Shown piece after piece: positions 17,241 through 19,422 of a DNA stretch of 64,000 bases; the first letter of the stretch is position 1, and every line of letters begins with the position of its first letter. Source of the DNA: Streptomyces katrae (GTDB lineage Bacteria > Actinomycetota > Actinomycetes > Streptomycetales > Streptomycetaceae); NCBI RefSeq assembly GCF_000717655.1, contig NZ_JNZY01000013.1:1-64000 (forward strand), given 5' to 3'. A program made the position numbers and the translations under genes. The notes below the pieces were generated by a model that saw only the letters and a program-made list of their open reading frames with translations, ran no database searches and had not been told where the DNA came from.

Positions 17241-17307
17241 GTGCGCCCCTCGCTCTGTCTGTGCGTCCCCGTGGTGGTGCCGTTACTGATCGCTACGTAA
17301 CGACACG

Positions 17308-17343
17308 AGTGAAATTACAAGTGGGCCGCTCCAGCGCAGTCAA
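17308..17343 (-). promoter_or_regulatory. whiB promoter
   Basis: TTGACT at 17343-17338, an 18-base spacer and TGTAAT at 17319-17314, giving a 5' leader of roughly 65 bases for whiB. An AGTGA at 17308-17312 (plus strand) next to the -10 box resembles a BldD half-site; whiB is a known BldD target, but this match is weak. A GTTAC/GTAAC dyad lies in the leader near 17282-17301. Confidence 0.6.
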
Positions 17344-17675
17344 GCCGAGATCTGCTATTGGGCCCCTTATTCACTCTGCGGAACCAAGCGTATGCAGAAA
17401 GTGTTCATATCGCCAAAAATCGTGACACATGCCACTGGCGCCCCACTGTGCCCCTGTTCACCCGCAATCGACGTGTCACTCCGGGGTGCGGTTGCGATCA
17501 AGCCAAAGAAGCGGCGCAGATCACATTCCGGTCACGGTGCGGCGTGTCGCGGCCGGGCGTTCGTGGGCTCCGGCGTCACGTGGAGCGCCACCTCCCCTGC
17601 ATCGGTATGCACAAACCTTTCTCCGAGCACAGCAACCGGATCAGATGAAACTTTCGCGACAAACGAGGCATTGGG
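17344..17675. other. gene-free region between whiB and the cysteine dioxygenase leader
   Basis: No convincing coding sequence; the open frames here lack actinomycete codon bias. The segment nearest whiB (17341-17520) looks less GC-rich than its surroundings and probably holds upstream control sites for the developmental whiB gene. I see no RNA gene. Confidence 0.6.
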
Positions 17676-17705
17676 TTGACAGTCCGGCCCACGACCCGGT
17701 CTCCT
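17676..17705 (+). promoter_or_regulatory. candidate promoter of the Cys leader peptide and cysteine dioxygenase
   Basis: A consensus -35 TTGACA at 17676-17681, an 18-base spacer and a weak -10 TCTCCT at 17700-17705. Transcription would start about 7 bases later, on the ATG of the leader peptide at 17713, making that ORF leaderless. The -35 is strong and the -10 is poor. Confidence 0.5.
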
Positions 17706-17712
17706 TGTCCCC

Positions 17713-17799
17713 ATGTCAGTGACCTCAGCAGCCACCCGGACCCCCATTCGTGGGTTCCTGTGCGCTGCCCAGGTTCGCTGTCGCTGTCGCTGCTGTTGA
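17713..17799 (+). CDS. cysteine-rich leader peptide (upstream ORF)
   Basis: A 28-codon ORF with ATG start and TGA stop, ending 84 bases before the cysteine dioxygenase start. The peptide begins MSVTSAATRTPIRG, has one Cys at residue 17 and ends CRCRCC just before the stop: five Cys, four of them in the last six codons, alternating with Arg CGC codons. Such a density by chance is unlikely. In mycobacteria, leaderless short ORFs with Cys runs are known as cysteine-responsive attenuators. Here the position right before a cysteine-degrading enzyme strongly suggests translation-based sensing of Cys-tRNA. No Shine-Dalgarno is seen and the ATG may be the first transcribed base. Confidence 0.65.
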   Translation: MSVTSAATRTPIRGFLCAAQVRCRCRCC

Positions 17800-17806
17800 T
17801 GCCTTC

Positions 17807-17829
17807 GGAGCCCCCGGCTCCCCTGAGCT
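17807..17829 (+). promoter_or_regulatory. possible attenuator hairpins after the Cys leader peptide
   Basis: Two mutually exclusive small hairpins directly follow the leader peptide: GGAGCC (17807-17812) with GGCTCC (17816-17821), and GCTC (17817-17820) with GAGC (17825-17828). They could switch depending on where a ribosome stalls in the Cys codons. The stems are short and GC-rich sequence makes chance pairing easy, so this is an inference. Confidence 0.3.
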
Positions 17830-17883
17830 CCGGCCACCCCACAGCGACCGCCAGCACGACTGACATCCATCGAGGACTCCCCG

Positions 17884-18432
17884 ATGAACACCACTCCCGC
17901 AACCGTCGAGAGCGACCTCCAGATCGCCGGCGACATCCTCTCCGTCCAGCACCTCCTGCAGCCCGCCCGCGAGCACCCGGCCACCGTCGCCGACTTCGTC
18001 GGCCTCGCGCGCACCATCGCCGCGAACCGCGCCGAGTGGGAGCACCTGGTCGAGTACGACGCCACCACCCGCTGGTACCACCGGCTGCGCACCGTCCCCC
18101 AAGCTCTCGACTCCGCTCGAGCAGGGGGTGCCCCCATCGGCTACGAGGTCTGGCTGCTCAGCTGGGTCCCCGGCCAGGGCAGCGGCCTGCACGACCACGG
18201 CCTCTCCTCCGGCGTCCTGACCGTCCTCGACGGCGAGCTCACCGAGCACGGCCCGCGCGGACCGCTGACCCTCCGCGCCGGCTCCCAGCGCGTCTTCGCC
18301 CCCGGGTACGCCCACGAGGTCGTCAACGACGGCCTCGACGGGGCGGTCAGCCTCCACGTCTACTTCCCGGGCCTGACCGAGATGCCGATGCACCACTGCT
18401 CCCCGGCCCGGCCGGAGACCCTTTCGGTCTGA
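17884..18432 (+). CDS. cysteine dioxygenase, cupin type I
   Basis: Non-haem Fe(II) enzyme of 182 residues that oxidises L-cysteine to cysteine sulfinate, lowering cellular cysteine. The iron ligands are His103 and His105 in GLHDHGLSSG and His144 in GYAHEVVND, and WYHRL and YEVWLLSW are family phrases. A GAGGA ribosome site precedes the ATG. Residues about 71-84 (VPQALDSARAGGAP) look like an extra loop; the DNA there (18095-18137) matches a repeat that I know from Streptomyces intergenic DNA, here inserted in frame. It is preceded by the Cys-rich leader peptide. Confidence 0.88.
   Translation: MNTTPATVESDLQIAGDILSVQHLLQPAREHPATVADFVGLARTIAANRAEWEHLVEYDATTRWYHRLRTVPQALDSARAGGAPIGYEVWLLSWVPGQGSGLHDHGLSSGVLTVLDGELTEHGPRGPLTLRAGSQRVFAPGYAHEVVNDGLDGAVSLHVYFPGLTEMPMHHCSPARPETLSV
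18095..18137 (+). repeat. Streptomyces short repeat inserted in cysteine dioxygenase
   Basis: The unit starts TCCCCCAAGCTCTCG, contains CGCTCGAGCAGGGGG and ends CCCCCAT. Nearly the same unit is widespread between genes in Streptomyces genomes, as I recall. The CCCCC...GGGGG arms can form a hairpin. About 42 bases are added without breaking the frame, giving a 14-residue Ala/Gly-containing loop. Confidence 0.55.
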
Positions 18433-18462
18433 CCGGTCCGCGCACCTGCCAGACTGCCGTGC

Positions 18463-19422
18463 ATGCGCATTGTTGTTCTGGCCGGCGGCATCGGCGGCGC
18501 CCGTTTCCTCCGCGGACTCAAGTCGGCGGTTCCCGACGCGGACATCACGGTCATCGGCAACACCGGTGACGACATTCACCTGTTCGGGCTGAAGGTCTGC
18601 CCCGATCTGGACACGGTGATGTACACCCTCGGCGGTGGCATCAACGAAGACCAGGGCTGGGGCCGCACCGACGAGTCCTTCACCGTCAAGGAGGAGCTCG
18701 CTGCGTACGGGGTCGGACCCACCTGGTTCGGCCTCGGCGACCGCGACTTCGCCACCCACATCGTCCGTACGCAGATGCTCGGCGCGGGCTACCCGCTGAG
18801 CGCCGTCACCGAGGCCCTCTGCGACCGCTGGCGGCCCGGGGTCCGGCTGCTGCCCATGTCCGACGACCGCGTCGAGACCCACGTCGCCGTCAACGACCCC
18901 GAGACCGGCGAGCGCCGCGTCATCCACTTCCAGGAGTACTGGGTCCGGCTGCGCGCCTCGCTCGACGCCGAGGCCGTCGTACCCGTCGGCGCCGAGCAGG
19001 CCAAACCCGCTCCCGGCGTGCTCGAGGCCGTCGCGGCCGCCGACCTGATCGTCCTCCCGCCGTCCAACCCGGTCGTCTCGGTCGGCACCATCCTCGCCGT
19101 GCCCGGCATCCGCGAGGCCGTGGCCTCCGCCGCAGCGCCCGTCGTCGGCCTCTCGCCCATCGTCGGGGGCGCGCCCGTGCGCGGGATGGCCGACAAGGTG
19201 CTCGCCGCCGTGGGCGTCGAGTCCACCGCCGCGGCCGTCGCCCTGCACTACGGCAGCGACCTGCTCGACGGCTGGCTCGTGGACACCGCCGACGCGGCCG
19301 CGGTCGCCGAGGTGGAGGCCGCCGGGATCGCCTGCCGTGCGGTACCGCTGATGATGACCGACCTGGCCGCCACCGCCGCGATGGCCCGCGCCGCGCTGGA
19401 GCTCGCGGAGGCCTCCCGGTGA
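18463..19422 (+). CDS. cofD: 2-phospho-L-lactate / PEP transferase of F420 synthesis
   Basis: CofD (FbiA), 319 residues, joins an activated lactyl or enolpyruvyl phosphate to the deazaflavin Fo to give (dehydro)F420-0. Signatures are the N-terminal [12 protein letters not shown], the [22 protein letters not shown] phrase that binds Fo, and [13 protein letters not shown]. It overlaps the fbiB start by 4 bases (GTGA) and so is translationally coupled to it. CAGACT at 18450-18455 sits 7 bases before the ATG, a possible leaderless start. Confidence 0.95.

Follow-up and report, generated by a model that had tools for sequence, protein, structure and literature searches.

Why should a gene for a cysteine-degrading enzyme be preceded by a short open reading frame that closes on a run of cysteine codons, and what would a ribosome paused on that run do to the gene? 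This arrangement lies upstream of a cysteine dioxygenase (CDO) gene in the 64,000-nt stretch of Streptomyces katrae DNA analysed here (the window; Table 1). To our knowledge, the amino-acid codon leaders already known govern synthesis, import or tRNA synthetases, not breakdown. A sequence-only reading of the locus had proposed a leaderless upstream ORF (uORF) that senses cysteine through its codons, with a reversed logic in which abundant Cys-tRNA permits expression. Our analysis supports the first part of this proposal in that the leader ORF before CDO, with its Cys codons and leaderless geometry, is conserved. We judge that a cis-acting leader read by a ribosome upstream of CDO is probably the right explanation of the locus, and that the uORF very probably acts as a Cys-codon sensor; the direction in which it would act is taken up below.

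Table 1. Features of the CDO leader region in the window, in order of position.
Feature	Position	Strand	Basis
TTGACA, -35-like element	17676..17681	+	TTGAC 36 or 37 nt 5′ of the uORF start in 123/127 loci
TCTCCT, non-standard -10-like element	17700..17705	+	Position-specific conservation in 127 loci; TSTCCT in most relatives
uORF	17713..17799	+	28 codons, MSVTSAATRTPIRGFLCAAQVRCRCRCC*, read from the sequence; related ORF in 127/128 loci with upstream DNA
End helix, 5′ arm AUGUCAGU, including the uORF start codon	17713..17720	+	At least 7 contiguous pairs in 31/34 window-clade loci
Cys tract TGT CGC TGT CGC TGC TGT	17779..17796	+	TGT positions fixed in the window clade
Tract:antitract helix, 5′ arm GUCGCUGU	17780..17787	+	8 contiguous pairs in an alifold consensus of 30 window-clade loci, 7 mismatch-free
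C-rich, G-poor spacer (rut-like)	17800..17871	+	C/G ratio comparison
Two mutually exclusive post-stop hairpins	17806..17832	+	Sequence; GGAG/CUCC pairs in 30/30 window-clade loci
Antitract, 3′ arm ACAGCGAC	17841..17848	+	Motif present in 34/34 window-clade loci
End helix, 3′ arm ACUGACAU, immediately 5′ of the CDO Shine-Dalgarno	17859..17866	+	Pairing count 31/34
Hairpin CAUCG..CGAUG with the CDO Shine-Dalgarno (GAGGA, 17872-17876) and start codon	17868..17886	+	Each of 7 pairs kept in 28-30 of 30 window-clade loci
Cysteine dioxygenase (PF05995)	17884..18432	+	53.2 bits, gathering cut-off 23
cofD/fbiA, next gene	18463..19422	+	Follows CDO in 80/80 loci checked, at 12-200 nt

The 28-codon ORF with its CRCRCC ending is present as had been claimed, and the sequence confirms four Cys codons (TGT, TGT, TGC and TGT) among its final six sense codons, ahead of a cysteine-catabolic gene. 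The TTGACA hexamer stands 18 nt from a weak -10-like element, as described, and 37 nt 5′ of the uORF ATG at 17713, with the CDO gene 3′ of the uORF; the spacing is conserved among relatives. Of the 156 ATG-initiated ORFs of 15-55 codons on both strands of the window, the uORF is the sole one with at least three Cys among its last six codons, and also the sole one with TTGAC 36 or 37 nt upstream. Furthermore, the composite pattern TTGAC-N18..20-TSTCCT-N5..9-ATG matches twice in the 8.58-Mb genome, compared with no match for a reversed-pattern control. In the -10-like region, numbered relative to the ATG, T at -8 is conserved in 96% and C at -1 in 97% of the 127 loci, and the other positions from -13 to -6 in 76-89%, the exception being -12, which is C or G in 88%. 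A consensus scan gave no match at TCTCCT because the element lacks an A at position 2, which is expected of a -10 of the form TAnnnT (PMC8079986). TSTCCT departs from this form, yet is well conserved in the relatives of the window, and may be recognised by an activator or by a sigma factor of an unusual kind. The promoter-to-ATG geometry, on which the term leaderless rests here, predicts a transcription start such that the mRNA most likely begins at the uORF AUG.

The downstream gene is a CDO by family, the solved chains that score best against its product being named cysteine dioxygenase, and cysteine is its predicted substrate. Upstream of it lies a divergent WhiB gene. The coding sequence at 18104-18127, with its flanks, holds an in-frame insert relative to some relatives (PQALDSARAGGA, with the palindrome-like CTCTCGACTCCGCTCGAGCAGGGG); a similar insert is found in L004 and none in L005, L008 and L080.

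We examined how far the uORF extends among relatives. A contig scan with the CDO protein gave 526 loci; among the best 80, all but one titled Streptomyces, each of the 79 with enough upstream DNA carries a short ORF whose tail is rich in Cys. Every one of 150 Streptomycetaceae genomes searched contained a CDO match; this search added 29 loci from the same genus, all with the ORF, and loci from 15 other genera, 18 of 19 with the ORF. Across the window genus and these 15 genera, a Cys-tailed short ORF is found at 127 of 128 Streptomycetaceae loci with upstream DNA, L043 (93 bp upstream only) and L115 (a placeholder) having been excluded before counting. The single locus without it is one of two copies, and its sister copy in the same genome has the ORF. 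This count, and the frame tally given next, are partly built in because the ORF search used Cys content, picking ORFs with at least three Cys in the last seven residues (80 rows) or with TTGAC and at least two Cys (the other 47 rows). Among ORFs so chosen, 125 of 127 have at least three Cys within the last ten residues and 118 at least four, and in-frame Cys triplets in the last ten codons of the 109 Streptomyces loci number 540, against 1 and 1 in the other frames. The 18 ORFs from other genera, 26-51 codons long, were selected on TTGAC and only two Cys; 17 of them show at least three Cys in the last ten residues, and their Cys triplets fall 70 in frame against 5 and 3 out of it, again partly by construction. 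Promoter spacing is independent evidence for the 80 rows, and Cys clustering beyond two residues for the other 47; the TTGAC spacing and the clustering in other genera weigh more than the raw 127 of 128. The comparison of relatives bears out the expectation that the Cys codons at the uORF end would be conserved, and this conservation rules out a chance occurrence of the uORF.

Outside Streptomycetaceae, an ORF with at least three Cys in the last ten residues was obtained at 6 of 40 CDO loci, a sample drawn from 125 genomes with a CDO match. L195 and L199, from a single genus, have ORFs ending in MCCGVMRCCCCA and MCHGVMRCRCCA some 160 nt 5′ of CDO, as estimated from the profile match. Their shared genus, similar peptide and similar distance make it plausible that these Cys ORFs are genuine, and they are possibly an independent case. 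Those of L214, L220, L222 and L228 were judged not plausible. In another genus (L200, L201), an ORF reading MHLE(T/P)LHWSNLPVDLRRQASALC... and containing DLRRQASALC follows TTGAC immediately 5′ of the CDO match.

For structural comparison the leaders were split by uORF N-terminus into groups A, B and C, C being the remainder. Group A, the window clade of 34 loci, is the group for which single-branch status was established: in a tree that included 9 others, a branch with full support separates it from them. The CDO start could be located for all but L117, L118 and L120, leaving 124 leaders in the pairing, energy and spacer analyses; for L097 (spacer 42) the assigned start is probably wrong.

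At 72 of the 75 loci in groups B and C, the Cys tract and CDO codons 2-5 are complementary over 11-12 of 12 bases. By group, complementarity of at least 11 of 12 is found at 34 of 36 loci in B, 38 of 39 in C, 9 of 34 in the window clade and 0 of 15 in the other genera, and 12-mers from the CDO body given the same treatment reach 11 in 0.5-1% of cases; kinship inflates the counts in B and C. The real tract:CDO-start pairings sum to 870, above all 300 within-set swaps (maximum 869), and against random coding 27-mers the median rank of the CDO start as a tract partner is no better than the 8th percentile in B and the 3rd in C. The CDO gene starts with ATGAACAGCGACAGC at 52 of the 75 loci, and its Ser codons are AGY in 141 of 141 cases within codons 1-6, compared with 250 of 755 further on. 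In group B, TGTTGTYGCTG tracts accompany 6 of 9 genes with AAC as codon 5 and 7 of 27 with AGY (p 0.046, kinship ignored). In addition, the varying pairs of a short hairpin around the uORF stop are kept in 331 of 350 cells across 70 loci, above all 2000 shuffles, where the 3′ arm was taken as the best-pairing candidate, a choice that favours the observed value.

Opening energies, modelled for the 124 leaders, point the same way in groups B and C. With the tract covered, the cost to open the CDO start falls from 14.5 to 8.9 kcal/mol in group B and from 16.6 to 8.7 kcal/mol in group C, a mean drop of about 5.6 and 7.9 kcal/mol for a modelled ribosome on the tract. Placed at the uORF stop, the ribosome gives 9.4 (B) and 12.4 (C) kcal/mol, and a control ribosome at codon 6 does not open the start (15.4 and 17.3 kcal/mol). 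Since the tract is complementary to CDO codons 2-5, a ribosome on it is predicted to turn CDO on in groups B and C, and by this pairing 72 of the 109 Streptomyces leaders point to that outcome. At the 15 loci from other genera the tract:CDO-start pairing is lacking, which implies that the family as a whole does not use this helix as its output.

Conservation, promoter geometry, codon choice and complementarities, all read directly from the DNA, suggest a mechanism in which the leaderless start, uORF translation, Cys sensing and sign are predicted steps. Transcription would begin at the uORF AUG, and a ribosome would read 28 codons ending in a Cys cluster, mostly TGT, its dwell time on the tract being set by the supply of charged Cys-tRNA. 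The tract would also be one arm of an RNA switch: for most of the Streptomyces examined, it would hide the CDO start through codons 2-5, and a ribosome on it would free that start, so that slow Cys decoding should raise CDO output. We give this sign, ribosome on the tract and CDO on, an even chance in the relatives and a somewhat less than even one in the window strain. For a cysteine-degrading enzyme, switching on under Cys-tRNA shortage makes little metabolic sense.

The window clade appears to have been rewired. Most of its CDO genes have variable N-terminal codons; a four-locus branch (L021, L030, L036, L086) retains the ATGAACAGCGACAGC start, which we read as the older state. With the CDO N-terminal codons changed, the tract would now be partnered with ACAGCRAC in the leader, and 5′ AUGUCAG would hold CUGACAU beside the CDO Shine-Dalgarno, itself in its own hairpin. 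In line with this, alifold of 30 window-clade loci pairs the tract with ACAGCRAC inside the leader, and one tract:antitract pair varies without mismatch (UA in 17, UG in 9, CG in 4). On the tree this variation needs three changes and is compatible with a single origin, and we therefore treat the covariation as weak. A simple motif test for it failed (p 0.39) because three loci also matched the motif by way of codons 21-22. In 31 of 34 loci the end helix joins AUGUCAG to CUGACAU, which lies at -28 to -22 relative to CDO; the remaining three loci read CUGACAC, and none of its control windows has seven or more contiguous pairs. The window leader folds with a z of -3.69, none of 200 shuffles being equally stable. 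In the window strain, opening the CDO start is predicted to cost 8.3-9.2 kcal/mol, almost regardless of where the ribosome sits. In the model the start was not released by a ribosome, whether it occupied the tract, stood at the stop or waited in a queue at the AUG; as ribosome position leaves start access unchanged there, no sign can be derived for this clade.

The sign proposed by the sequence-only reading would restore the metabolic sense of a degradative enzyme: with Cys-tRNA abundant, the ribosome would reach the stop and CDO would be expressed; with the ribosome stalled, Rho acting on the C-rich spacer, or the post-stop hairpins, would turn CDO off. The spacer is indeed C-rich and G-poor, which leaves room for a Rho-based reading of either sign: C/G exceeds 1.5 in all 108 Streptomyces spacers measured and in 12 of the 15 from other genera, versus 3 of the window's 25 upstream regions, the uORF-CDO spacer itself being among the three. 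A released ribosome, however, would expose that spacer as well. Rho has also been weakly predicted for the mycobacterial Cys leaders by Seliverstov et al. (PMC1262725). As to the hairpins, two can be drawn after the stop (GGAGCC/GGCTCC at 17807-17821 and CGGAGC/GCTCCG at 17806-17832) and they are mutually exclusive, as had been proposed, and in the window clade a ribosome at the stop would cover them; but no U tract follows them, and the GGAG/CUCC hairpin is, by eye, conserved in the window clade only. A simple consensus scan of the + strand from 17241 to 18500 found no hairpin with a U-run terminator, and in the window no Rfam family matched above its gathering score. Nor do the structures of groups B and C favour the reversed logic: there, a ribosome placed on the tract in the model opens the CDO start, and 72 of 75 pairings imply the same. 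We regard it as unlikely.

Codon choice in the uORF bears on what the leader reads. Across the 127 loci, 453 of 660 uORF Cys codons (69%) are TGT and 207 TGC, compared with TGT 0 and TGC 10 in four genes of the window. At 33 window-clade loci of equal length, codons 23, 25 and 28 are TGT in 33 of 33, and codons 24 and 26 are exclusively TGC or CGC. The remaining groups show a few TGT/TGC exchanges, and the third codon position is the most variable in none of six equal-length sets. The sequence-only reading had expected third-base variation in the conserved Cys codons; the result is the contrary, with third bases nearly fixed, so that selection seems to act on codon or RNA identity, beyond the amino acid alone.

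In Escherichia coli, tnaC, the leader of the tryptophanase operon, senses free Trp via an arrested peptide and has one Trp codon. Like the leader described here, it precedes a degradative amino-acid gene with a spacer open to Rho; here, in contrast, Cys codons are clustered. A comparable arrest peptide might sense free cysteine or a thiol through the nascent chain and not through codon supply, and an AAQVRC / AVQARC / AARARC / AASALC-like stretch before the tract in several groups would suit it, as would the leader of the second CDO copy (below), which is peptide-conserved with the third codon position the most variable. The window family, however, shows no such excess of third-position variation; its uORFs differ in N-terminus and length (26-51 codons in the other genera) and some Cys residues are replaced by Arg, and we consider an arrest peptide improbable. 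It is very improbable that an RNA or DNA site alone is conserved, with the Cys codons incidental and the ORF no sensor: third codon positions are as constrained as the others and the tolerated TGC to CGC changes preserve pairing with G, but the 18 other-genus loci keep Cys codons beside the stop (59 TGT and 31 TGC, with the partly built-in excess of 70 in frame over 5 and 3) without any tract:CDO-start pairing (0 of 15 testable).

The CDO domain is nearly cysteine-free in every set, with or without a polycysteine leader. In 109 proteins the first 150 matched residues contain 2 Cys, and the full lengths 110, mostly near the C-terminus. Low Cys content as a hint of synthesis under Cys shortage was rejected because second-copy CDOs (1 Cys in 4019 residues) and 40 other actinobacterial CDO domains (4 in 4554) are just as Cys-poor.

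A second CDO gene of the same genome (C36:37219-37638, L184) has a short Cys ORF of its own, MTGNDVRLWRRVHMDLLRYAGCVCRPSC. At each of the 24 second-copy loci examined (L162-L185), all from the window genus, the Cys leader differs in type from that of the window and is a variant of VTDTDVRLWRRVHMDLVRYAGCVCRPSC, conserved at the peptide level. Both of the two variants scanned exceed the cut-off of NCBIfam NF042934, that of the window genome scoring 36.9 bits against a cut-off of 27. The window uORF peptide, in contrast, matches neither NF042933 (cut-off 45 bits) nor NF042934 (27 bits) at E up to 10, and an NCBIfam scan of seven window-family peptides, from the window and 6 relatives, matched no model at the same limit. 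Elsewhere in the genome, a search with TGYTGYTGYTGY hit 54 places, and the 30 loci examined contained one short ORF of the uORF kind, apparently accidental; two Cys-leader patterns run across the genome gave no match; and the regions of sulfite reductase and cysK, scanned for Cys ORFs that have a promoter hexamer, yielded nothing convincing. Upstream in the sulfite-reductase region (G000:C4, L246:3017) there is a short ORF, MNGAGIALVSRRHVDLGRMSSAICPAS, that by eye is NF042934-like.

The closest known counterparts are the mycobacterial polycysteine leaderless short ORFs, reportedly described by Canestrari and colleagues in 2020 (Mol Microbiol 114:93). They share with the leader described here the leaderless geometry, the terminal Cys run, a sulfur-metabolism gene downstream and a tract able to hide the downstream start, the last in groups B and C, where the modelled sign is also the same (ribosome on the tract, gene on). 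The mycobacterial tract is said to pair with the ribosome-binding site, whereas here it pairs with coding codons 2-5. Here, too, the gene is cysteine-degrading and the bacterial family another, and the window clade mostly lacks the tract:CDO pairing. The mycobacterial ORFs are covered in the citing papers PMC9031893, PMC9094748 and PMC13236596. NF042933 (Ms5788A family Cys-rich leader peptide) and NF042934 (putative leader peptide, cis_reg_atten) likewise describe Cys-containing leader peptides, and differ from the window family in the lack of a match noted above. In the available text of Seliverstov et al. 2005 (PMC1262725), Cys-run leader peptides precede cys operons of Mycobacterium and P. 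acnes and cbs of B. longum. These resemble our leaders in their Cys runs near the stop, the absence of a conserved terminator hairpin, pyrimidine spacer motifs and a suggested role of Rho, and differ in that the operons are biosynthetic, Streptomyces does not figure among the Cys leaders and the word 'dioxygenase' is absent from the main text. The same source gives changes of the regulatory codons in the S. coelicolor ilvB leader as without effect, which counts against codon sensing here. The Streptomyces lividans attenuators of PMC8079986 are also short, partly leaderless ORFs before amino-acid genes; of the eight in its Table 4, none is for cysteine and none precedes a CDO gene. Among titles and abstract openings returned by our literature queries, in part for the broad ones, no paper concerned a Cys leader before CDO.

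In Streptomycetaceae, then, such a leader stands family-wide before a catabolic enzyme, with its Cys tract complementary to the enzyme's first codons in most Streptomyces examined. If the usual sign is true, CDO would have an unexplained role under cysteine shortage; if the alternative is true, the same kind of leader would have been rewired to the opposite sign. We also put forward a further possibility, which we hold to be unlikely: both Streptomyces CDO copies may be under Cys-codon leaders, and in the window clade the switch may be a closed lock, with the start codon of the uORF held in a helix next to the CDO ribosome-binding site and the Cys tract in one within the leader. The uORF would then be loaded only during leader synthesis, and whether ribosomes were already on the Cys tract would decide CDO output. 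If this is true, the speed of the ribosome would read out cysteine breakdown as well as supply.
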